Position numbers and translations under genes: made by a program. Shown piece by piece: positions 7,722 to 50,274 of a DNA stretch of 64,000 nt. How positions within the stretch are numbered: position 1 is the first letter of the stretch; every line of letters starts with the position of its first letter. The stretch is from SAR202 cluster bacterium Casp-Chloro-G2 (GTDB taxonomy: Bacteria > Chloroflexota > Dehalococcoidia > Lucifugimonadales > UBA3495). Under the pieces are notes generated by a model. It saw only the letters and a program-made list of their open reading frames with translations, searched no databases and was not told the origin of the DNA. Location: contig MUCI01000009.1 of the NCBI GenBank assembly GCA_002816575.1, positions 1 to 64,000 of the forward strand, given 5' to 3'.

Positions 7722-7858
7722 ACCCTTATCCAGAACGGCAGAGGGGACGGCCCGATGAAGCCTAGCAACCGGTCCTAGTCCGCCACGGCAGGCGACGATA
7801 CGGTGCTAATTCCGGCGCCAGACGCTGCGCCAGCAGCGCCAGGCGAAAGATGAGGGGA
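7722..7858 (+). promoter_or_regulatory. SAM-I (S-box) riboswitch
   Basis: S-box signatures occur in order: CCTTATC (P1 5' side), CGATGAAGCCTAGCAACC (kink-turn and core), GGTGCTAATTCC, and AAAGATGAGGGG closing P1 (CCCTTATC pairs with GATGAGGG with one G-U). It lies upstream of mtnA and is followed by an intrinsic terminator, so SAM binding should stop transcription of the SAM-cycle operon. Confidence 0.93.
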
Positions 7859-37180: not shown

Positions 37181-37873
37181 ATGACATCCCAAGATGGCGG
37201 CACACGGGTTACCATTATAGGCGTGGGTCCCGGCGACAACGGATTCCTAACCCTGAAGGCAAAACAAGCGGTTGAGGAAGCCGACCTGGTGGCCGGTTTC
37301 GCGACGGTCTTGAACGTCGTCCGACCCTTCGTCAAGAATGCCGAACTCTGCCCCATGGCCTACCGCGACCAGGAAGAGGTTCTTGACTACGCCGTGGGAA
37401 AGGTGAAACAAGGCAAGAGCCTCGTCGTATGCGCCTGGGGAGACCTGAACGTGTCGGCCAAGGAGTTGCTAGACCGCGTGCGGCGGCGGGTGGACCACGT
37501 TGACCTGATCCCCGGCATCAGTTCGGTGCAGATCGCGCTGGTCCGTTCCGGCATATCCTTGGAGCATGCGGTCTTCGTCACGCTTCACGTTCGGGACGGC
37601 GCCGAATCGGCCTTGGAAGAATTGGTCCACTATATAAAGGAAGGCCGGCGGAACGTGGTCCTGCTGCCCCGACCCTACGACCTGATGCCGGCCGGTATCG
37701 CCGCTGGCGTTATCGAGGCTGGGATCTCCGGGGACCGCCAGATGACGGTCTTCCAACGCCTCACTCACGACGACGAGCAGTCTTGGAGCGGCAGCGTCAG
37801 CGAATGCGCCGCCATCACCTCCGATTTCAGCGATCTGTCGATAATGGTTTTCCACAAGCCTGACTCGGACTAG
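37181..37873 (+). CDS. cbiE: Cobalt-precorrin-7 (C5)-methyltransferase-like protein
   Basis: A 230-residue tetrapyrrole methylase. VTIIGVGPGDNGFLTLKAKQAVEEADLV is the SAM-binding N-terminus, PGISSVQIALVRSGI (111-125) is typical of CbiE/CobL-N, and the loop usually reading GDPxxxG reads GDLNVSAKE. It would methylate C5 of the corrin ring in cobalamin synthesis; the partner CbiT domain is not fused and is not in the window. The ATG sits in the loop of a hairpin (GCCGCCAT 37173-37180 with ATGGCGGC 37194-37201), and no clear ribosome site precedes it. It lies 155 bp upstream of cobN. Confidence 0.82.
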   Translation: MTSQDGGTRVTIIGVGPGDNGFLTLKAKQAVEEADLVAGFATVLNVVRPFVKNAELCPMAYRDQEEVLDYAVGKVKQGKSLVVCAWGDLNVSAKELLDRVRRRVDHVDLIPGISSVQIALVRSGISLEHAVFVTLHVRDGAESALEELVHYIKEGRRNVVLLPRPYDLMPAGIAAGVIEAGISGDRQMTVFQRLTHDDEQSWSGSVSECAAITSDFSDLSIMVFHKPDSD

Positions 37874-38028: not shown

Positions 38029-41000
38029 TTGATCCTTTTCGTCACCACTGCAGACACCGACCTGCTCACCGCTGGCCGGGCATTGGAGATTCTGCCGGCT
38101 GATTTTCCACAGGTAAAGGCGTTCAACCCGGCCACTCTGCCGGGGGAAGGCGAGCAAGACGCCATCCTGGCGGCCGCCGCGGAGGCCGACGTTGTTGTGC
38201 TGCGCCTGCTGGGCGGCAAACGGGCCATGCCCGAAAACTTCGACCCATTGGTCCGCCTCTGCCACGAGCGGGGCATTCCCCTCATCGCCTGTCCTGGCCA
38301 TCAGGAATGGGACCAAGACCTGGTCACGGCCTGCACCGTTCCGCCCTCTGAGCTAGACGCCGTTTTCTCCTACCTGATTCGTGGCGGCGTGGCCAATTTC
38401 GAGAATCTTTTCCTCTTTTTAAGTGACTCCTACCTGGGCTCGGACTACGGCCACGAGGCCCCGGCGGAAGTCTCATGGGAAGGCATCTACCATCCCGACG
38501 AAGCCGACGGCATGTCAGCCCAGGATTTTGTGGTGCGCCGCTTCAAGCCCGGCCGGCCCAGCGTGGCGGTGCTGTTCTACCGCGCCCACTGGATGAGCGG
38601 CAACCTGCAGACGGTGGACGCACTGGTCCGGCGGCTTGAGGAACTGGAAACCAACGTGATGCCCGTCTATTCGTTCAGCCTGAAACACAATCCGGAGGGC
38701 GACGGGCAGGCCAACCGGACCTTCTCGGAGATCCTCTGCGACGAGAATGGCGACGCCCGCGTCGACTGCATCATCAACACCATGGGCATGTCCATGACCG
38801 ACCTGCACCAAGACGGCGCAACCTTCGCCGCCGGCCCCCAGGTCGACTATCTGGACAAGCTGAACGTCCCCATAATCCAGGGCATATTCAGCACCGGCAA
38901 CGAGGCCGAATGGGAGGAGAGCTCCCTGGGTCTGGGCCCCATAGACACCGCCATGAGTGTGGCCCTGCCCGAGTTCGACGGGCGGATCATCACCGTGCCA
39001 ATCTCATTCAAAGAAGAGGTATCTTCGGAATCCGTTGGCCGCGATGGCAAGATGGACGCCCGGCTGCAGCGAAACCTGCCCCGGCCCGACCGCATCGACC
39101 TCCTGGCCCGGCTGTCCGCCAAATGGGCCTCGCTGCGGCTAAAGCCGAACGCTGACAAGCGCATCGCCATCATCCTCAGCAACTACCCGACCAAGGACGC
39201 CCGCGTCGGGAACGCGGTGGGACTGGACACCCCCGCTTCGGTCATCAACGTGCTAAACGCCATGGCCGCGGCCGGGTACACCGTGACCGACATCCCCGCC
39301 GACGGCGATGAACTGGTCCACCGGATAATCGAGCGGTGCAGCAACGACACCGACACGCTGACCGAAGAGCAACTCCGGCTGGCGGCGGGCCACGTTAGCT
39401 CCACCCAGTACAAAGAGTGGTTCCGCGGTTTCCCGCAAACCGTCCAGAACGACATGGTTGAGGCCTGGGGCCAGCCGCCGGGGCAGGTATACCGCACCGG
39501 AGACAACCTGGCCATCGCCGGTATCGACTTGGGCAACGTGTTCGTCGGACTACAGCCGCCCCGAGGCTTCGGCGAGAACCCCATATCCGTGTACCACAGC
39601 CCGGACCTGGTCCCCACCCATCACTACATCGCCTATTACCGGTGGATGCGGGACGTTTTCAAAGCCGACGCGATGGTCCATGTGGGCAAGCACGGCACCC
39701 TGGAATGGCTGCCCGGAAAGGGGATCGGCCTGTCCGCTGCCTGCTACCCCGAGGTGGCCCTGGATGACGTGCCGCTGTTCTACCCGTTCATCATCAACAA
39801 TCCCGGTGAGGGCGCCCAGGCCAAGCGGCGGGCCCACGCCACCATCATCGACCACCTCATACCGGCCATGACCACCGCCGACAGTTACGGCGACATCGCC
39901 CGGCTGGAACAGTTGATGGACGAGCATTACCAGTGCCAGACGTTGGACCCGGCCAAGCTGCCCTTGCTTGAGGGCCAGATCTGGGACATGGTGCGTCAGG
40001 CCGACCTGGACCGCGACCTGGGAGTGGACGAACATCCGGAGGACTTCGGCGACTTCATCTTGCACATCGACGGCTATCTCTGCGAACTGAAAGACGCCCA
40101 GATCAGGGACGGTCTCCACACCCTGGGCGAGGTGCCCCAAGACGAGCAGATGACCGGCCTGTTATCCTCCCTCACTCGCTTGGATACCGGAGGGATACCC
40201 AGCCTTAGACGCTCGCTGGCCGAGGCCATGGGCTTGGATTACACCAGCCTGCTTGACGAACCGGCGCTGCCCGCCCCCGAGCCGGTCCCAGCGCCGCTGG
40301 CCGCCGGCGACGGCACGCCGGTCCGCACCCAAGGCGACCTGCTGGAAAGACTGGAAGAGCTGTCCCGCTCGGCTTACACCATGCTGGACGCCGGCGGGTT
40401 CAAAAGGCAGGACGTGGCCGGCATTGTCTTAAAGCTACTGGGAACCGAAGACGCCCAGTCCAGCCACGTGCTGAACTACGTGACCGACACCCTGCATCCG
40501 GCGCTGCTGCGGACCACCGACGAGATCGGCAATCTGCTGCGCGGCCTGGACGGTCAATTCGTCCCCGCCGGACCCAGCGGCGCACCGACCAGGGGCATGT
40601 CCAACATCCTGCCCACCGGCCGCAATTTCTATTCCGTCGACCCCAAGACCATCCCATCGCCCACCGCCTGGGACATGGGCGTCGGCCTGGCCAACGCGCT
40701 GCTGCAGGTCTATCTGGAGGAAGAGGGCGGCTACCCCGAGATGGTGGGGCTGGTCATCTGGGGCACGTCCGCCATGCGCACCCACGGCGACGACATCGCC
40801 CAGGTGTTCAGCCTTCTCGGCATCAAGCCGGTCTGGCAGGAAGAGAGCCGGCGCATCACCGGACTCGAGGTGATACCTCTGGCGGACCTGGGCCGTCCCC
40901 GGATCGACGTCACGGTTCGGATCAGCGGCTTCTTCCGGGACGCCTTCCCCAACCTGATCGAGTTGATCGACCAGGCGGTGGAGCTGGTGGCCTCGTTGGA

Positions 41001-41853
41001 CGAATCGCCGGAAGACAACATGGTGGTCAAACACCTGCGGGAGGACGCCGCCGCCAGGGAGTCCGGCGAGGAACAGTCGGCCGAGCCGACCGTGTCCCAG
41101 GGCAACCCCGCGCTGTACCGGATATTCGGCAGCAAGCCCGGCACCTATGGGGCCGGGATATTGGCCGCCATCGATGAACGCAACTGGGAGAGCGTTCAAG
41201 ACCTGGCTGAGGTCTATACCGCCTGGGGCGGCTACGCCTATACCCGCCAGGACTTCGGCGTTAACGCCCGGAACGAGTTCCGCCGCCGGTTCAGCCAGAT
41301 CGTGGTTGCGGCCAAGAACCAGGACAACCGGGAGCACGACATCTTCGACAGCGACGACTACATGCAGTATCACGGCGGCATGATCGCCACCGTGAGGGCG
41401 CTGACCGGCAGCAACCCCCAGCAATTTTTCGGAGACAGTTCCGACCCCACCCGCGCCAGGGTTCGAAAGTTGGAGGAGGAAGCGCGCCGGGTCTTCCGCA
41501 CCAGGGTGGTCAACCCCAAGTGGATCGACTCCATGAAGCGCCACGGCTACAAGGGCGCCTTCGAGCTGTCGGCCACCGTCGATTACATGTTCGGCTATGA
41601 CGCCACTGCCCAGGTCATTGAGGACTGGATGTACGAGAATGTCACCGAGTCCTACGTGCTGGACCCGGAGACCCAGGAGTTCTTCCAGCAGAGCAACCCC
41701 TGGGCGCTAAGAGACATTGTGGAGCGGCTGTTGGAGGCGATAGAGCGCGGCATGTGGGAGAACCCGCCCGAGGACATGAAGGAAAAGCTTCAAAACATGT
41801 TCTTGGACCTGGAAGCCGATCTGGAAGCCCGCCAAGAGGGCCCGCAAAGCTAA
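38029..41853 (+). CDS. cobN: Cobaltochelatase large subunit CobN
   Basis: A 1274-residue protein of the CobN/BchH family, the porphyrinoid-binding subunit that inserts cobalt into the corrin ring with ATPase partners. It starts MILFVTTADTDLL, typical of CobN. HVGKHGTLEWLPGKG (from residue 551), FYPFIINNPGEGAQAKRRAHA and GTSAMRTHGDDIAQVFSLLG are family marks, as is the C-terminal GYKGAFELSATVDYMFGYDAT. The TTG start lies after GGGAGGG and a 12-bp palindrome, GGGACCGGTCCC (38014-38025). The matching ATPase subunit is ChlID at 48100. With cobalt transporters and B12 riboswitches nearby, CobN is favoured over magnesium chelatase BchH. Confidence 0.94.
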   Translation: MILFVTTADTDLLTAGRALEILPADFPQVKAFNPATLPGEGEQDAILAAAAEADVVVLRLLGGKRAMPENFDPLVRLCHERGIPLIACPGHQEWDQDLVTACTVPPSELDAVFSYLIRGGVANFENLFLFLSDSYLGSDYGHEAPAEVSWEGIYHPDEADGMSAQDFVVRRFKPGRPSVAVLFYRAHWMSGNLQTVDALVRRLEELETNVMPVYSFSLKHNPEGDGQANRTFSEILCDENGDARVDCIINTMGMSMTDLHQDGATFAAGPQVDYLDKLNVPIIQGIFSTGNEAEWEESSLGLGPIDTAMSVALPEFDGRIITVPISFKEEVSSESVGRDGKMDARLQRNLPRPDRIDLLARLSAKWASLRLKPNADKRIAIILSNYPTKDARVGNAVGLDTPASVINVLNAMAAAGYTVTDIPADGDELVHRIIERCSNDTDTLTEEQLRLAAGHVSSTQYKEWFRGFPQTVQNDMVEAWGQPPGQVYRTGDNLAIAGIDLGNVFVGLQPPRGFGENPISVYHSPDLVPTHHYIAYYRWMRDVFKADAMVHVGKHGTLEWLPGKGIGLSAACYPEVALDDVPLFYPFIINNPGEGAQAKRRAHATIIDHLIPAMTTADSYGDIARLEQLMDEHYQCQTLDPAKLPLLEGQIWDMVRQADLDRDLGVDEHPEDFGDFILHIDGYLCELKDAQIRDGLHTLGEVPQDEQMTGLLSSLTRLDTGGIPSLRRSLAEAMGLDYTSLLDEPALPAPEPVPAPLAAGDGTPVRTQGDLLERLEELSRSAYTMLDAGGFKRQDVAGIVLKLLGTEDAQSSHVLNYVTDTLHPALLRTTDEIGNLLRGLDGQFVPAGPSGAPTRGMSNILPTGRNFYSVDPKTIPSPTAWDMGVGLANALLQVYLEEEGGYPEMVGLVIWGTSAMRTHGDDIAQVFSLLGIKPVWQEESRRITGLEVIPLADLGRPRIDVTVRISGFFRDAFPNLIELIDQAVELVASLDESPEDNMVVKHLREDAAARESGEEQSAEPTVSQGNPALYRIFGSKPGTYGAGILAAIDERNWESVQDLAEVYTAWGGYAYTRQDFGVNARNEFRRRFSQIVVAAKNQDNREHDIFDSDDYMQYHGGMIATVRALTGSNPQQFFGDSSDPTRARVRKLEEEARRVFRTRVVNPKWIDSMKRHGYKGAFELSATVDYMFGYDATAQVIEDWMYENVTESYVLDPETQEFFQQSNPWALRDIVERLLEAIERGMWENPPEDMKEKLQNMFLDLEADLEARQEGPQS

Positions 41854-41878
41854 ATCACAGATCTTCAGGAGGCCACCT

Positions 41879-42304
41879 GTGGAAATAACGATGGAACTAC
41901 TCCGTGAACTGACCCAAGATGACAAGAAAACGTGGGTGATCGGCGGCAGCAAGGTGTCCAGCGAGAATAGCTCCAAGGGCATCAAAGAGCCGGAGGTCTC
42001 GGGCAAATACGTCACGATCGAAGCGGACAATTGGCATTTTCACCTGGCCCTGGACGATGTTACCGGGATCCAGTTCGTCGATTCCGAGAGCCATGGGGAC
42101 ATGCACTCCTACTACGTCCGGTTTTCCGGCCCGGGATACGAGGACACGTTGGTCCGCAGCTATTTCCCCAATCCCAACCTGGACGACGACGAGAAGCGGA
42201 CCGAGTTCCAGCCCGAAAAACTCAAGGCGTTCGAAGAGTTCCGGGACCGGTACGTGGGCCGCGAGGGCATCGTGTTCGTGACCAGGCCCCGGCAGGCCAG
42301 TTAG
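41879..42304 (+). CDS. Unrecognised 141-residue protein downstream of cobN
   Basis: Starts at GTG with CAGGAGG 6 nt upstream, 25 bp after cobN, so very likely co-transcribed with it. No signal peptide or membrane segment. The centre, NWHFHLALDDVTGIQFVDSE, then a Ser/Tyr strand and Gly-containing strands, recalls the beta-sheet pattern of ChuX/HutX/HemS-type haem-handling proteins. This is a weak resemblance by eye only. His-rich NWHFHL could bind metal or tetrapyrrole. The second half is charged (NPNLDDDEKRTEF) and predicted helical. Given its place, an accessory to cobalt chelation is a reasonable guess, not a call. Confidence 0.75.
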   Translation: MEITMELLRELTQDDKKTWVIGGSKVSSENSSKGIKEPEVSGKYVTIEADNWHFHLALDDVTGIQFVDSESHGDMHSYYVRFSGPGYEDTLVRSYFPNPNLDDDEKRTEFQPEKLKAFEEFRDRYVGREGIVFVTRPRQAS

Positions 42305-42418: not shown

Positions 42419-42463
42419 CAACTGGCTTACCACGAAGCCAAAGCGCTTAACAATCTAAAACAT

Positions 42464-42644
42464 GTCCATAGGTGGTCCCGATTATTCGGGACTGAAAAGG
42501 GAAGCCGGTGAGATACCGGCGCGGTCGCGCCACTGTAACTGGTGTCAGCCACCCCACTAACGAATCGCCACTGACCCGATAACTCGGGATGGGAAGGCGG
42601 GGGTACTTGACCTAAGCCAGGAGCCAGGAGACCTGCCTATGGAT
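42464..42644 (+). promoter_or_regulatory. Cobalamin riboswitch 1
   Basis: Contains the class signatures in order: GGGACTGAAAAGGGAAGCCGG, CCGGCGCGGTC, GCCACTGTAACTGG, and GCCAGGAGCCAGGAGACCTGCC (B12 box). P1 is GTCCATAGG (42464-42472) with CCTATGGAT (42636-42644). A terminator follows, then the NikA/DppA-type binding-protein gene, so cobalamin should switch this transporter off. Confidence 0.95.
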
Positions 42645-42696
42645 TGACTTGATGCACTTCGCAATTGAGGGTGTGAGTCTTACCGATTCTCTATGA

Positions 42697-42754: not shown

Positions 42755-44338
42755 ATGCACTGGCGTTCAACGGCCTTTGGGTTCATCTTTGGCACTTTGC
42801 TCCTGGCTATCTTGGCGTGTGGCGGTCCTGCCAGCGCCACGCCCACCGGTTCGGTTGTAGCCGAATCGAGCGGAGCGCCTACTGGTTCCGCAGAGCAACG
42901 CGTGTTGAAAGTAGCCCTGACTTTCCTGGACGAGCCGCCAGACCCTTATCAGACCGGTTGGCTGGCGGTCCCCACCGGTCTGGCCGAAACTTTGTTCCGA
43001 TTGAGCGACGACCTTAAGCCGGAGCCTTGGCTGGCCACCGGCGCGGTACAGACCGCTCCGGAAACCTGGGAGATCACCCTGCGCGAGGGCGTCACCTTCC
43101 ACAACGGCGTGTCGATGGACGCCGCCAAGGTCAAAGGCTCGCTGGACCTGGCGCTGCAACGGCGGCCCGGCACCAGGGTCCTTCTGGACATTGCCCGGAC
43201 CGAGGTCAAAGACCCGTACACCGTGCTCATCACCACCAACTCGCCCAACCCGACCCTGCCCGGCCTGTTGACCAACCAGAACACGAGCATCGCCGACCCC
43301 GGCACGGTGCCGGCATCGCCGGAAGATTCGGCGGAAAGCGCTGCGATGACCGGTCCCTACAAGCTGGTGTCCTTCAAAGCCGATCGGGAGATGATTGTCG
43401 AAGCGCACACCGGTTATTGGCAGGGCCGACCGGCGTTGGACCGGATCGAATACGTTGCCTTTAACCAGAGCGACACCCGCCTCATCGCCCTCCAAAGCGG
43501 CGACGTCGACATATCGGTCAACCTCTCCCCACAGGGAGCGGTGACCGCCGAGAAAGATTCGTCACTGGAAGTTTTGATTGCTCCACCGTCGGGCATGCTG
43601 TTCATGTTTGTGAACCATGAAAGTCCGGCGATGCGGGACCCGCTGGTGCGCCGGGCCGTCGCCATGGCGGTGGACCGGAATGCCATGGCAACCGGCGTGG
43701 CGGACGGGCGCGCCGTCCCTGCGGAAAGCATGTTCCCGCCCGGGTTCATCTCCTGCCAGAATCCGGCTGGGTTTTCCTACAACCCGGAAGCGGCCCGTCA
43801 ACTGCTTGCCGATGCCGGCTATCAGGATGAAAACGGCGACGGCATCGTGGAAAAAGACGGGAAAGCCTTGGAGTTGGTCCTACAGACCTATCCCGAGCAG
43901 CCACTCTTGCCGCCGATGCTCGAAGCATACCAATCGATGTTGAAGGACATCGGCGTTGGCGCCAAGGTCCAAATCGTGGAATGGACCCTGGCCAGCCAGG
44001 GCGGTTACGACCTGTTCGGCTACAGCAACGGCACCATCACCACGGGCGACCCCGGGTGGGCGCTCAACCGCCAGTTCCTGACCGGCGGCGACGAGAACCG
44101 GGGCAATTTCAGCAACGCCACGGTGGACGAACTCATCGGTAAGTTGTCCGGCGCGGCCGGTCCGGCCCAGCGGGAGCAGATCGCCTGCGAAGCCCTGAAA
44201 GCAGGGAATGATGAAGTTGCCCTGATACCGGTGATGTTCCCCAACCGGCTCTACGGGATATCGGACTCCGTCGATTGGCCGTCGGGTCCGCACGCCGTCC
44301 AACTCTACTTCATAGACTACAGAATCGGACTGAAATAG
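42755..44338 (+). CDS. ABC transporter substrate-binding lipoprotein, NikA/DppA family (predicted cobalt or corrinoid-precursor uptake)
   Basis: A 527-residue family-5 binding protein. The N-terminal signal MHWRSTAFGFIFGTLLLAILAC ends in a lipobox with Cys22, followed by a Ser/Thr/Gly-rich linker, so it is membrane-anchored outside. GLAETLFRLSDDLKPEPWLATG, WEITLREGVTFHNGVSMDAAKV and GPYKLVSFKADREMIVEAH are the family pattern. Such proteins bind peptides, nickel or metal chelates. Control by a B12 riboswitch points to cobalt or a corrin precursor; the ligand is inference. It is followed directly by two permease genes. Confidence 0.88.
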   Translation: MHWRSTAFGFIFGTLLLAILACGGPASATPTGSVVAESSGAPTGSAEQRVLKVALTFLDEPPDPYQTGWLAVPTGLAETLFRLSDDLKPEPWLATGAVQTAPETWEITLREGVTFHNGVSMDAAKVKGSLDLALQRRPGTRVLLDIARTEVKDPYTVLITTNSPNPTLPGLLTNQNTSIADPGTVPASPEDSAESAAMTGPYKLVSFKADREMIVEAHTGYWQGRPALDRIEYVAFNQSDTRLIALQSGDVDISVNLSPQGAVTAEKDSSLEVLIAPPSGMLFMFVNHESPAMRDPLVRRAVAMAVDRNAMATGVADGRAVPAESMFPPGFISCQNPAGFSYNPEAARQLLADAGYQDENGDGIVEKDGKALELVLQTYPEQPLLPPMLEAYQSMLKDIGVGAKVQIVEWTLASQGGYDLFGYSNGTITTGDPGWALNRQFLTGGDENRGNFSNATVDELIGKLSGAAGPAQREQIACEALKAGNDEVALIPVMFPNRLYGISDSVDWPSGPHAVQLYFIDYRIGLK

Positions 44339-44339
44339 C

Positions 44340-45287
44340 TTGGGCAATCACCTAACGCGACGCCTGATAACACTTCCATTTCTCTTGGTGGGCATCTCAA
44401 TCATCAGCTTTTTGCTGTTGAATTTCGCCCCCGGCGACGCCGCGGAGATCAGGCTGCTCCGTCAGAACGGGGGCGTAGCGCCTTCCGAGGAAGCGGTGAT
44501 GGAATTGCGGCAAGAATTGGGTTTAAACGACGCCCTGCCGATCCGCTATGCCAGATGGGTATCTTCCGCGGTGCGCGGCGACCTGGGTGAGTCCTACCGC
44601 ACCGGTGCTTCGATCGCCTCCGAATTGACCCGGCGATTGCCAGCGACCCTCCTGCTTGCAGCCACCGCTTTAGCCTTGGCGGTGGCTGCAAGCATCCCCC
44701 TCGGCGTATTGGCGGCGGTGAGGCGGGGCTCTTGGGTGGATACCATATGCCGCATACTCGCCCTCGTAGGGGCGGCAGTGCCCAGCTACGTGATGGCGCC
44801 GGCCTTGATGCTGCTATTCGCCGTGAAGTTGGACTGGCTGCCGGCCATCGGCTACGGGTCCTTCAGCGCCCTTGTGCTGCCGGCCCTGGCGCTGTCCTTC
44901 GGAACCATGGCCCAGTTGATGCGCCTGACGCGGGCCAGCGTGCTAGAGGTGCTGGACCAAGACTATATGCGGACGGCCCGCGCGAAAGGCCTGACCGAGA
45001 CGGTGGTGGTTTGGCGTCACGGCTTGAAGAACGCCCTGCTGCCGGTGGTCACGGTCCTGGGGACCAATACGGGGTATCTTCTGGGCGGCGCCGTGATCAT
45101 CGAGACCATCTTCGGCTGGCCGGGTGTCGGTCAGTTCGTCGTCACCGGAATCTCCCAACGGGACTACCCCGTGGTACAAGGGTTCGTGCTGTACATGGCT
45201 GTGATCTTCCTGCTGGTCAACCTGGCGGTAGATATCTCATACCGCTGGCTGGACCCGAGGCTTCATTTTGGCCGGCGGCATCACTAA
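44340..45287 (+). CDS. ABC transporter permease, NikB/DppB family
   Basis: A 315-residue inner-membrane permease with about six helices. RRLITLPFLLVGISIISFLLLNFAPGD is the typical N-terminus, GDLGESYRTGASIASEL the following periplasmic part, and the EAA loop DYMRTARAKGLTETVVVWRHGLKNALLP contacts the ATPase. ETIFGWPGVGQFVV is conserved at the end. It starts with TTG one base after the binding-protein stop, so it shares riboswitch control. Confidence 0.9.
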   Translation: MGNHLTRRLITLPFLLVGISIISFLLLNFAPGDAAEIRLLRQNGGVAPSEEAVMELRQELGLNDALPIRYARWVSSAVRGDLGESYRTGASIASELTRRLPATLLLAATALALAVAASIPLGVLAAVRRGSWVDTICRILALVGAAVPSYVMAPALMLLFAVKLDWLPAIGYGSFSALVLPALALSFGTMAQLMRLTRASVLEVLDQDYMRTARAKGLTETVVVWRHGLKNALLPVVTVLGTNTGYLLGGAVIIETIFGWPGVGQFVVTGISQRDYPVVQGFVLYMAVIFLLVNLAVDISYRWLDPRLHFGRRHH

Positions 45288-46257
45288 CATGAAGACTGAC
45301 GCTAAGCCTGTAAGAACGCCTCTTCGCCTTCGAGAACCGGCTCTTGCCCCAAGATTGCCCCGACCTGGAGACGTCACCATACAGAACACGATCCAACAAC
45401 CGGTTTCCCAGCGACGGGCTTCACGAAAGACGGTGTTCCATCACTTGCGCCACGACCCCGGAGCCGTTGCTGGTTTCGTGATCGTGGCCGCAGCTATCCT
45501 GGCGGCGCTGTTTGCCCCGTTGCTCCCCCTGCCAAGCCCGGTGGAAGTGGACCTGCAGAACCGGTTGCTTTCTCCCTCCGGCGCTTTCCCGTTGGGCACC
45601 GACCACCTGGGCCGGGATGAGTTGAGCCGCCTGGTCTTTGGCGCACGGACCACGTTGATGATGTCCGGCGCATCGTTGGCCATCATCATGGTCATCGCAA
45701 CCGTGGTCGGTTCCCTGGCCGGCTACTACGGCGGCTGGCTCGACACCGGCTTGATGATGCTGGTGGACCTGCTGCTGGCATTTCCGGCGCTGATCCTGGG
45801 GGTGGCCGTGGCCGGTATCTTGGGGCCAAGCCTGGTCAACGTGATGATTGCCGTCTCAGTGGTCTGGTGGGCCAGCCACGCCCGAGTCATCCGCGCCATG
45901 GTCTTGTCGGCAAGGCACCGGGAATATGTTGTGGCCGCCAGGGCTATCGGGGCTAGCGACGGCCGAATCATCGTCTTCCACATCGCCCGTAACATCATGG
46001 GGCCGTTCGTCGTATTGGCGACGCTGGACATCGGCTGGATAATCTTGGGGATAGCCGGTTTGAGTTTCCTGGGACTGGGCGCCCAGCCGCCCACGCCCGA
46101 ATGGGGGGCCATGCTCAACGACTCGCGCTCGTACATGCAGACCGCGCCATCGTTGTTGCTCGCCCCCGGAATCGCGATCTTTCTATTGGTGCTGGGCTTC
46201 AATCTTTTGGGCGACGGGCTGCGCGACATGCTTGACCCGACGACCTACCGGCTTTAG
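45268..46257 (+). CDS. ABC transporter permease, NikC/DppC family
   Basis: A 329-residue permease. After a charged N-terminal region come LRHDPGAVAGFVIVAAAILAALFAP, FPLGTDHLGRDELSRLVFGARTTL, and the EAA loop EYVVAARAIGASDGRIIVFHIARN. The TTG start at 45268 has GAGG 7 nt upstream and overlaps the previous gene by 20 bp; an ATG at 45289 is the alternative. No ATP-binding subunit (NikD/NikE type) follows, so ATPases must come from elsewhere in the genome. Confidence 0.9.
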   Translation: MAGGITNMKTDAKPVRTPLRLREPALAPRLPRPGDVTIQNTIQQPVSQRRASRKTVFHHLRHDPGAVAGFVIVAAAILAALFAPLLPLPSPVEVDLQNRLLSPSGAFPLGTDHLGRDELSRLVFGARTTLMMSGASLAIIMVIATVVGSLAGYYGGWLDTGLMMLVDLLLAFPALILGVAVAGILGPSLVNVMIAVSVVWWASHARVIRAMVLSARHREYVVAARAIGASDGRIIVFHIARNIMGPFVVLATLDIGWIILGIAGLSFLGLGAQPPTPEWGAMLNDSRSYMQTAPSLLLAPGIAIFLLVLGFNLLGDGLRDMLDPTTYRL

Positions 46258-46344: not shown

Positions 46345-46394
46345 TCTGCTCGAAGAGCAACCGAAAGATTGTCTCTTCGTTTAACAACTTAGAC

Positions 46395-46580
46395 GAGCTG
46401 CTTGGTGGTCCCGTTCATTCGGGACTGAAAAGGGAAGCCGGTGCGAGTCCGGCGCGGTCCCGCCACTGTAACTGGTAACCCCCTCTCCCACCGGGAGTGG
46501 AGTCACTGTTCCGAGTAATTGGAACGGGAAGGCGAAGGGGGGGTAGAAAAGCCAGGAGCCAGGAGACCTGCCACCAGCTT
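46395..46580 (+). promoter_or_regulatory. Cobalamin riboswitch 2
   Basis: Nearly the same as riboswitch 1 in its core: GGGACTGAAAAGGGAAGCCGG, TCCGGCGCGGTC, GCCACTGTAACTGG, and GCCAGGAGCCAGGAGACCTGCC. P1 is closed by GGTGG with CCACC. It precedes cbtB-cbtA and the ChlID chelatase gene. Confidence 0.95.
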
Positions 46581-46629
46581 GACTTGGAAGCCTTCGTGGA
46601 TTGGGGGTATGAGTCAGTATGACGATTCC

Positions 46630-47332: not shown

Positions 47333-48103
47333 ATGCCTAGAATATTGATCATTGGGCTGGTGGCGGGCCTATTCGCCGGCCTGCTGGTGGGCGGGTTTCA
47401 CAACCTGTTCACCGTGCCCGTCATCGAACGGGCCATAGATTTCGAAGAAGCACAGTCTGCATCGGCGAATCCCAATGCCCCGGAAGAAGACCCGCTGGTC
47501 TCCCTGGGGGCGCAACGGTGGGGAATGGCGGCCGGGACCGGCATCTACGGCGCCATCCTTGGCGTGGTCTTCGCCGCCGCCGTCACCGTACTCCGCAAGG
47601 TAGTCCCAGATTGGAAGCCCTTGGCCATCGCCGTCACCGCGGCCGCCTTGGGATTCTGGGCCTTGTCTTTGTTCCCGTTCATCCGGTACCCGCTGAATCC
47701 GCCCGGTGTGGGCGAGTCCGACACCCTCACCTACCGGCAGGGTCTGCAGACCATGTTCATGATTCTGTCGGTACTAGGCGTCGGGGTATTGCTGTTTGGC
47801 CTGCGTGAGATCAACGGTCGGTTCCAAGAAACTAGCAAGCGGGTCAAAATGTACGGCGCTGCCGGGCTGGCCTACGTTGTCTTCGCGGTAATCATGTACT
47901 TCGCCCACCCGGCCAATCCAGACCCGGTGGAGATGCCCATCGACCTCCTGGAACTGTTCCGCACGCTGACGATGGTCGGGCAATTCCTGACCTGGGCCAT
48001 GATGGCCGGACTGGCAACCGCCGGCATGTATTGGTATCAACGCCGCGATGCGAAGGCGGGCAACCGCTTCGATCCGGTGACCGGAGCGCCCGTAAGCCTG
48101 TGA
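47333..48103 (+). CDS. cbtA: Cobalt transporter CbtA
   Basis: A 256-residue integral membrane protein with five or so helices. ILIIGLVAGLFAGLLVGGFHNLF is the first, and the loop has PVIERAIDFEEA, usual for CbtA. SLFPFIRYPLNPPGVGESDTLTYR is the conserved central segment. It imports cobalt with CbtB, energy source unclear. GGGAGGGG lies before the ATG. Its last codons overlap the ChlID start (GTGA), so the transporter and chelatase subunit are translationally coupled. Confidence 0.92.
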   Translation: MPRILIIGLVAGLFAGLLVGGFHNLFTVPVIERAIDFEEAQSASANPNAPEEDPLVSLGAQRWGMAAGTGIYGAILGVVFAAAVTVLRKVVPDWKPLAIAVTAAALGFWALSLFPFIRYPLNPPGVGESDTLTYRQGLQTMFMILSVLGVGVLLFGLREINGRFQETSKRVKMYGAAGLAYVVFAVIMYFAHPANPDPVEMPIDLLELFRTLTMVGQFLTWAMMAGLATAGMYWYQRRDAKAGNRFDPVTGAPVSL

Positions 48104-50274
48104 CCAGATCAAGCACGACAACCACCAGTGAGAACCCCGGAAATAAAAATCCCGGCAATAAAAACCCCGGCAATAAAAACCCCGGCGGAAACGCCGGCAG
48201 AATCCCAGAGTCCCGGTTTCCGTTCACGGCCATCGTAGGTCAAACGGCCATGAAACGAGCGCTGCTCCTGAACGCCGTCAACCCGAAGATCGGCGGCGTT
48301 CTGGTGCGCGGCAAGAAGGGCACCGCCAAGTCCACGGCGGTCCGTTCTCTGGCTGCGCTATTGCCCGAGGTAACCGTGGTCCAGGGCTGCCCCTACAACT
48401 GCAGTCCGGAAGAACGCCAGGGGCTGTGCAACCGCTGTGAGCCGATCGACACCGACGCCGCAACCGTCGTTCGCCAGATCCCGATCGTGGACCTGCCGGT
48501 TGGCGCGACGGAGGACAGGCTGGTGGGGTCTCTGGACATCGAGGAGGCCATCAAAACGGGAAACCGGGTCTTTGAGCCGGGCCTCATCGCAGCGACGCAC
48601 CGGGGCATTCTCTACATCGACGAAGTTAACCTGCTCAACGACCACCTGGTGGACATTCTGCTGGACGCCGCCGCCATGGGCCGCAACTATGTGGAGCGGG
48701 AGGGTATCTCGGTGACCCATCGTTCGGAGTTTATCCTGGTGGGCACGATGAACCCGGAAGAAGGCGACCTCCGGCCCCAACTGCTGGACCGCTTCGGACT
48801 GGCGGTTGAAGTCGACGGGCGGTTCTCCCCCGAGGAACGCCAAGAGGTGGTGAAGCGCCGCATCGCCTACGAGGCCGACCCCCAGGCGTTCATGGCCCGG
48901 TGGCAGCAGCCGGAGCAGGAGGAACGGCAGCGGGTGCTGCGGAGCCAGCAGTTGCTGCCCCAGGTGGTTGTCAGCGATGACATCTTGTCCCTGATCACAT
49001 CCATCTGCGCCGAATACGATATCGACGGCATGCGCGGCGATATCGTCATGTACAAGACAGCCAGCACCATCGCCGCCTACGAGCAGCGGACGGAAGTCAA
49101 CGCCGAGGACGTGCGCGAGGCCGCCAACCTGGCCCTGCTTCACCGCCAGCGCCGGCAGCCCTTCCAGCAGCCCAATCTGGAGACCAGCCAGCTCGACTCA
49201 ATGGTGGACGACTTTCAGAGTCAGGACCGCCAACGCGAATCGCAAGACCAGGCCGGGGATAACGATCAAGGAGAGGGCGATTCCGAGCCCTCGGATTTAA
49301 GACCGGAAGATTTAGAGTCACCGGACCCCGAATCACCTGAGCCCCAGGACCCCGACGCCGAACCGGACAATCCGGGATTCGGGCTGCCCCAGAATGAGCA
49401 GTTCGAAGTGGGCGACCCCTATGCGGTGCGGTCTCTCGACCTGAAGCCTCCAGACCAACGCTCCCGCCGCGCCTCGGGCCGCCGTAACGTCACCATCAGC
49501 GACTCCTCCGCCGGGCGGTACGTCCGCTCCCGCCAACCGGAGGGCAAGGCGACCGGGCTGGCCTTGGACGCCACCCTGCGCGCCGCCGCACCGCACCAAC
49601 TGGGCCGCCGGTCATCGTCCCAATCAGCCAACGCCGTGCTGGTCGAGCCCCAGGATATCCGCGATAAGGTCAGGGAGAACAAGGCGGGCAGCCTGGTGCT
49701 GTTCGTGGTTGATGCCAGCGGCTCCATGGGCGCTCAGCGGCGCATGGTGGCGGTCAAGGGGGCGATCATGTCCCTCTTGCTGGACGCCTACCAGCGGCGC
49801 GACCGGGTGGGACTGATCTCATTTCGCGGGACACAGTCCAGTCTGCTGCTGCCGCCCACCAACAGCGTCGACCTGGCCCAGGTCCACCTGAAAGACATGC
49901 CCACGGGAGGCCGAACTCCGCTCAGCGCCGGTCTGTTCAAAGCGTTGGAGATCGTCGAGACGGAACGCATCAAGGACCGGGACGTCATGCCCCTGCTGGT
50001 GCTGCTGTCCGATGGCCGGGGCAACGTGGCCCAAGGCCAAGACTCGCCCTTGGACGAAGCGTCGGTGGCGGCTGGGATCATCGGCGAGGGCAAGATCCCG
50101 TCGGTGGTGGTGGACACCGAGTCCGGGTTCATCAAGCTGGGCATGATACAGCCGATAGCCACGGCCATGGGCGCCCAATACCTGAAGCTGGAAGACCTGA
50201 GGGCCGACAACCTGGCGGAGGCGGTGCGGCTCAACATGCCCATTATCGGCGAGGCCCCGCCCCACGTTAACTAG
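48100..50274 (+). CDS. ChlI-ChlD fusion: ATPase subunit of the cobaltochelatase
   Basis: A 724-residue protein. The N-terminus has tandem NPGNK repeats. The AAA+ ATPase domain shows Walker A GKKGTAKST (72-80), Walker B ILYIDEVN (170-177), and a Cys cluster CPYNCSPEERQGLCNRC (97-113). An acidic/Pro-rich linker (about 365-427) leads to a C-terminal von Willebrand A domain with MIDAS DASGS (538-542) and FRGTQSSLLLPPT. This is the I and D subunits of magnesium chelatase in one chain, as found with CobN in organisms lacking CobST. The GTG start overlaps cbtA by four bases; an upstream in-frame extension overlaps cbtA and is unlikely. Confidence 0.92.
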   Translation: MTRSSTTTTSENPGNKNPGNKNPGNKNPGGNAGRIPESRFPFTAIVGQTAMKRALLLNAVNPKIGGVLVRGKKGTAKSTAVRSLAALLPEVTVVQGCPYNCSPEERQGLCNRCEPIDTDAATVVRQIPIVDLPVGATEDRLVGSLDIEEAIKTGNRVFEPGLIAATHRGILYIDEVNLLNDHLVDILLDAAAMGRNYVEREGISVTHRSEFILVGTMNPEEGDLRPQLLDRFGLAVEVDGRFSPEERQEVVKRRIAYEADPQAFMARWQQPEQEERQRVLRSQQLLPQVVVSDDILSLITSICAEYDIDGMRGDIVMYKTASTIAAYEQRTEVNAEDVREAANLALLHRQRRQPFQQPNLETSQLDSMVDDFQSQDRQRESQDQAGDNDQGEGDSEPSDLRPEDLESPDPESPEPQDPDAEPDNPGFGLPQNEQFEVGDPYAVRSLDLKPPDQRSRRASGRRNVTISDSSAGRYVRSRQPEGKATGLALDATLRAAAPHQLGRRSSSQSANAVLVEPQDIRDKVRENKAGSLVLFVVDASGSMGAQRRMVAVKGAIMSLLLDAYQRRDRVGLISFRGTQSSLLLPPTNSVDLAQVHLKDMPTGGRTPLSAGLFKALEIVETERIKDRDVMPLLVLLSDGRGNVAQGQDSPLDEASVAAGIIGEGKIPSVVVDTESGFIKLGMIQPIATAMGAQYLKLEDLRADNLAEAVRLNMPIIGEAPPHVN
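48133..48189 (+). repeat. 15-bp coding tandem repeat at the ChlID N-terminus
   Basis: Three full units (48133-48147, 48148-48162, 48163-48177) close to AACCCCGGCAATAAA plus a 12-bp partial (48178-48189), encoding NPGNK repeats. The length is a multiple of three, so unit gain or loss keeps the frame. Confidence 0.85.

Follow-up and report, generated by a model that had tools for sequence, protein, structure and literature searches.

A gene directly behind cobN in the SAR202 cluster bacterium Casp-Chloro-G2 raises the question of what a protein of 141 residues, here called p141, contributes to the handling of vitamin B12. Corrinoids are scarce and reactive, and to our knowledge their movement inside bacterial cells, after import by BtuCD or after cobalt insertion, is largely obscure; we know of no recognised bacterial carrier for the step that leads from importer or chelatase to adenosyltransferase. 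A sequence-only reading had suggested that p141 is a soluble tetrapyrrole carrier that hands the ring to CobN. Analysis of the window, a stretch of 64,000 nucleotides from contig MUCI01000009.1, and of related loci indicates that p141 is probably an undescribed intracellular carrier of B12-type rings.

The p141 gene (41879..42304, + strand) begins with GTG, ends with TAG and starts 25 nt after the end of cobN, with a perfect Shine-Dalgarno sequence, AGGAGG (41867..41872, +), 6 nt ahead of the start codon. It is present as a single copy in the genome and belongs to a unit with the order cbiE-cobN-p141. The first gene, cbiE (37181..37873, +), encodes the precorrin-6Y/precorrin-7 C5-methyltransferase (TIGR02467, 123 bits, cut-off 92.9), and cobN (38029..41853, +) encodes the cobaltochelatase large subunit (PF02514, 1406 bits; TIGR02257, 1276 bits, cut-off 822). 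The unit is followed by two cobalamin riboswitches. One, 3′ of p141 (42453..42654, +; RF00174, 114.7 bits), heads genes for a nikABC-like ABC transporter, comprising a substrate-binding protein and two permeases (42755..46257, +; Opp2B and Opp2C above the NCBIfam cut-offs, nickel-type), which probably form a B12-regulated cobalt importer. The other (46385..46589, +; RF00174, 116.6 bits) lies upstream of cbtA (47333..48103, +; PF09490, 150 bits), for a probable cobalt transporter subunit, and chlID (48031..50274, +; TIGR02442, 817 bits, cut-off 779), for a chlID-type cobaltochelatase AAA+/VWA subunit presumed to be the partner of CobN. The called chlID reading frame overlaps cbtA, and its true start is probably near 48200. 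No cobalamin riboswitch was found ahead of cbiE in the window. A SAM riboswitch is also present in the window (7723-7856; RF00162, 70.9 bits).

Conservation of the gene was assessed with one protein scan of species-representative genomes, which gave 40 loci. In 39 of 39 cobN-linked loci (38 of the 40, plus the window), the p141 gene shares the strand of cobN and comes immediately 3′ of it; the spacing between the two ranges from 4 to 273 nt (median 43), and identities are 58-91%. Among 35 aligned homologues, W52, H53, H55, R81, R93, Y95, P99 and F118 are invariant, which, together with retention at all of these loci, argues that p141 is a real gene. A cobalamin riboswitch precedes cbiE-cobN-p141 in nine loci (L008, L011, L013, L014, L016, L018, L024, L027 and L028). 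The group is narrow, since among 294 sampled genomes of the class just four further matches were found outside the window genome.

Within the GTDB family of the window, 15 genomes, the window's included, carry cobN with an adjoining p141 gene. In one of these, G003, the gene is frameshifted (locus L030, G003:C43), reflecting either an assembly error or decay. In G001 and G010, cobN is intact and the p141 gene is cleanly absent; an overlooked copy was ruled out, as the DNA from cobN to the riboswitch holds no trace or remnant of it. In G019, cobN runs straight into chlID with p141 missing between them. These three losses indicate that p141 is kept by most members of the family yet is dispensable beside CobN. 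We also rejected the notion that homologues invariably follow cobN, because those at L040, L041 and L056-L060 are not cobN-linked and three cobN loci are without the gene. The coupling to cobN that the sequence-only reading had proposed therefore stands within the close group of p141, and it breaks down in G001, G010 and G019 and in G023, a genome of the same family that has a homologue and no detected cobN.

Structure prediction gives p141 a fold known from haem-handling proteins. An AlphaFold2 monomer model built from a 35-row alignment (pLDDT 91.9, pTM 0.88) forms one compact domain, and the ten best Foldseek matches of this model are all of the HemS/ChuX/HutX kind, with E-values of 1e-7 for 3na2, 3fm2 at 3e-6, 2hqv at 3e-4, ChuX at 4e-4 and HutX at 1e-3. 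Structural comparison of the model gave Z scores of 15.0 (3na2), 12.3 (ChuX), 12.1 (2hqv), 11.9 (3fm2) and 10.8 (HutX), compared to 6-9 for the two-domain proteins HemS, ChuS and PhuS and 6.3 or less for folds not of the HemS type. Sequence profiles searched against the PDB agree (3na2, 2.4e-6; 3fm2, 9.1e-6; 2hqv, 0.003; HutX, 0.083), so that p141 is predicted with consistency to have the ChuX/HutX/HemS fold. The motif NWHFHL (residues N51-L56; codons at 42029..42046, +) lies in a region predicted as a beta strand at residues 53-57, and its W-H-x-H core lines up with haem-carrier strands such as LHGH in HutX and GGH in 2hqv. The sequence-only reading was thus right about the ribosome site, the strand and, by eye, the ChuX/HutX pattern, as well as about solubility, given that the sequence of p141 contains no hydrophobic segment.

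Family profiles refined this assignment. p141 passes the gathering cut-off of DUF7676 (PF24724; 33.7 bits, cut-off 27), with the match in two pieces, and 34 of 35 homologues match DUF7676 at E<=0.01. An hhalign comparison of the p141 group with 14 DUF7676 proteins gave a probability of 98.2% and an E-value of 3.5e-14 over residues 36-131, and the two share the features GY(L/V)T, WHFH, (L/F)PNP and R-YxG; W-H-x-H is found in most DUF7676 proteins. In the profile alignment, p141 is missing the N-terminal part of full-length DUF7676 and the insert after WHFHLC. ChuX_HutX (PF06228) did not match p141 itself at E<=1; it matched 21 of 35 homologues at E<=0.01, and one homologue 46% identical to p141 (L071:9051-9464) scores above cut-off for DUF7676 as well as for ChuX_HutX (31.4 vs 25 for the latter). 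The LFE_1968-like family (PF22684) matched 30 of 35 homologues at E<=0.01, with p141 below its cut-off (15.9 bits vs 27), and no NCBIfam family was found for p141 (best E 0.22). On these profile matches we file p141 as a shorter sister group of DUF7676 rather than a full member, and we call it HutX-fold rather than HutX since it lacks a direct ChuX_HutX match.

Relatives of p141 outside cobN loci point to B12 uptake. In G023, the homologue sits inside a transporter operon in the order cobalamin riboswitch (RF00174), Peripla_BP_2 (btuF-like), homologue, FecCD (btuC-like) and ABC ATPase; the best NCBIfam match of the permease is BtuC and the second match of the binding protein is BtuF, both below cut-off. 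A tblastn search of plasmids with this homologue gave no matches. At L030, from the same genus as the window, cobN and the frameshifted p141 are followed by a riboswitch, a gene that reads as encoding a CbiX-like/2Fe-2S ferredoxin, genes for a substrate-binding protein (SBP), FecCD and ATPase, and chlID.

DUF7676 genes of cyanobacteria, Proteobacteria, Actinobacteria and other Chloroflexota likewise occur in operons of the TonB receptor/BtuFCD type. On cyanobacterial, proteobacterial and actinobacterial plasmids the order is TonB receptor, DUF7676, binding protein, FecCD and ATPase; a cobalamin riboswitch heads the operon in 10 of 12 distinct plasmid loci, SBP/FecCD genes adjoin DUF7676 in nine of the 12, and two more riboswitch-led cases are found in Chloroflexota (L074, L075). 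In cyanobacteria, DUF7676 is fused to a thioredoxin-like 2Fe-2S domain (Pfam; L087:8764-9636, P0002). Such fusions, seen in L087, L088, L089 and L091, are annotated merely as ferredoxin or (Fe-S)-binding. DUF1636 genes recur beside B12 uptake operons (L087, L088, L092 and L097), and at L085:1-3327 a DUF7676 gene follows genes that resemble those for a nitrile hydratase alpha subunit and a 2Fe-2S protein, with an amidase-like gene downstream on the opposite strand (by eye). Taken together, the loss of p141 beside cobN, the btu-like operon of G023 and the DUF7676 uptake operons show that the common thread of the family is corrinoids in general, not CobN.

A side branch of the family lacks this setting. 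In a clade of five divergent homologues (L040, L056-L059), the neighbourhood is free of cobN, btu genes and riboswitches, suggesting that the HutX-type fold also serves another purpose; the btu-linked L060 groups on a long branch with the cobN-linked set, outside the clade. Homologues scattered without a link to cobN, which would weigh against the sequence-only reading, were thus encountered in part. By eye, divergent clade loci (L040, L069-L072) have genes of the LLM type, amidohydrolase-like genes, hydrolase genes or SDR genes in their vicinity and no corrinoid genes. Comparison of L041, L040 and L083 showed that an Acidobacteria-labelled contig nearly matches Chloroflexota contigs in the gene and its start region, and this contig is probably misbinned.

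We propose, with about even confidence, that p141 handles corrinoids, and not haem, in the cytosol as the B12 equivalent of HemS/HutX, carrying the ring onward from the entrance of the cytosolic corrinoid pool, as HemS, PhuS and HutX do for imported haem. At that entrance p141 would take up the ring, which in the relatives would be a corrinoid brought in by a BtuCD-type importer. In the window genome, which is 75% complete, neither a FecCD importer nor CobO/BtuR was detected and a PduO-type adenosyltransferase is present, a gene content suggesting that here p141 would receive the cobalt-corrinoid leaving the CobN/ChlID chelatase; because no FecCD importer was detected, an import role is not claimed for this genome. 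p141 would then hand the ring to a reduction or adenosylation step, for example the PduO-type adenosyltransferase. Corrinoid binding, the corrinoid concerned, the direction of transfer and the partners are what we infer for p141. A shared fold need not mean a shared type of ligand, and corrinoids are bulkier than haem; the corrinoid ligand of p141 is accordingly a prediction from its model and setting.

The fold and the strict place after cobN in the close group of p141 would also suit a carrier dedicated to CobN, which supplies the chelatase with hydrogenobyrinic acid a,c-diamide, the ring without its metal. We regard this as improbable, because p141 is missing beside cobN in three genomes, the G023 homologue belongs to a btu-like operon in a genome with no detected cobN, and across DUF7676 more broadly the association is with uptake operons. 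The carrier part of the sequence-only reading is in keeping with the fold, whereas delivery to CobN is not established, and these findings are better matched by a carrier of either CobN's product or an imported corrinoid than by an obligate feeder of substrate. It is still more improbable that p141 is a cobalt chaperone or sensor, whose W-H-x-H strand would bind Co2+ and feed the chelatase: H53 and H55 are invariant and cobalt transport genes are next to p141, but importers of finished B12, for which cobalt delivery is not needed, keep the gene, and the fold is that of tetrapyrrole carriers, with the motif matching their strands. The slimmest chance falls to an ordinary HutX-type haem handler that lies near B12 genes by coincidence. 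This would account for the shared fold and agree with the crystallisation of the relative 3fm2 as a putative haem-binding protein, but not with recurrent cobalamin riboswitch control and a BtuFCD-like setting in four phyla, nor with the neighbours of p141 (cbiE, cobN, nikABC-like genes, cbtA and chlID), among which no haem uptake or degradation genes of the hutWXZ type were found.

The strongest rival is ferredoxin-linked corrinoid reduction or dealkylation, in which a CblC-like p141 presents the corrinoid for reduction or removal of the upper ligand, with electrons from a fused or neighbouring (2Fe-2S) ferredoxin. Co(III) corrinoids that have been imported must be reduced ahead of adenosylation, cyanobacterial DUF7676 carries a fused thioredoxin-like 2Fe-2S domain, and (2Fe-2S) proteins adjoin DUF7676 or p141 in the Rhodococcus, Streptomyces, L074 and L030 loci. 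Against this, p141 in the window is without an adjoining ferredoxin, its fold shows no evident redox site, and DUF1636 and the CbiX-linked 2Fe-2S proteins that recur in these settings may serve other steps, so that we consider a redox partner unlikely as an account of p141. A broader form of the carrier reading combines elements of both. Tentatively, and with less confidence than we place in a carrier role for p141 itself, we suggest that DUF7676 and the p141 group could be a bacterial class of HutX-fold cytosolic corrinoid chaperones at CobN-type and BtuCD entrances, and that the cyanobacterial 2Fe-2S fusion could also ready imported B12 for adenosylation, making it comparable in function to animal CblC, whose fold is unrelated.

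With its riboswitch control and with both the fold and the position of haem carriers, this family is a concrete candidate for a corrinoid carrier and, if the proposal is true, one fold has been reused for iron and cobalt tetrapyrroles. It also offers a working hypothesis for the function of DUF7676, for which we found no literature making a connection with cobalamin (for the names ardX/frdX, the literature found gave only an unrelated ferredoxin naming), and for that of alr4030 in an experimentally tractable cyanobacterium. In Anabaena, alr4027-btuB2-alr4030-btuFCD sits behind a cobalamin riboswitch, cobalamin uptake needs BtuB transporters, TonB3 and BtuD, and alr4030 is described as ferredoxin-like and given no role (Graf et al. 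2024, PMC10878165). The same gene order is found at L087, where a DUF7676-ferredoxin gene occupies the alr4030 slot, and from gene order we conclude that alr4030 is very probably such a fusion.

Comparison of p141 with these systems revealed both shared and distinct features. The window genome differs from the BtuBCDF uptake of Anabaena in having no detectable FecCD importer, and p141 differs from DUF7676 in coming after cobN and not after a TonB receptor. Its best structural match is 3na2 of the LFE_1968-like family, over 130 residues. 3fm2 (Ava_4353 of Anabaena variabilis) has a similar strand, and its haem binding is the inference of its depositors. p141 resembles ChuX/HutX in fold over 116-117 residues at 2.3-2.6 Å and, for its btu-linked relatives, in a comparable position in an import operon; in contrast, it is only 11-19% identical to them, is shorter by about 40 residues at the N terminus, and has a setting and riboswitch of the B12 type, not the haem type. 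PhuS and HutX are cytosolic haem carriers behind a haem importer (review, PMC12670364), and this slot behind the importer is the one occupied by the btu-linked relatives of p141.
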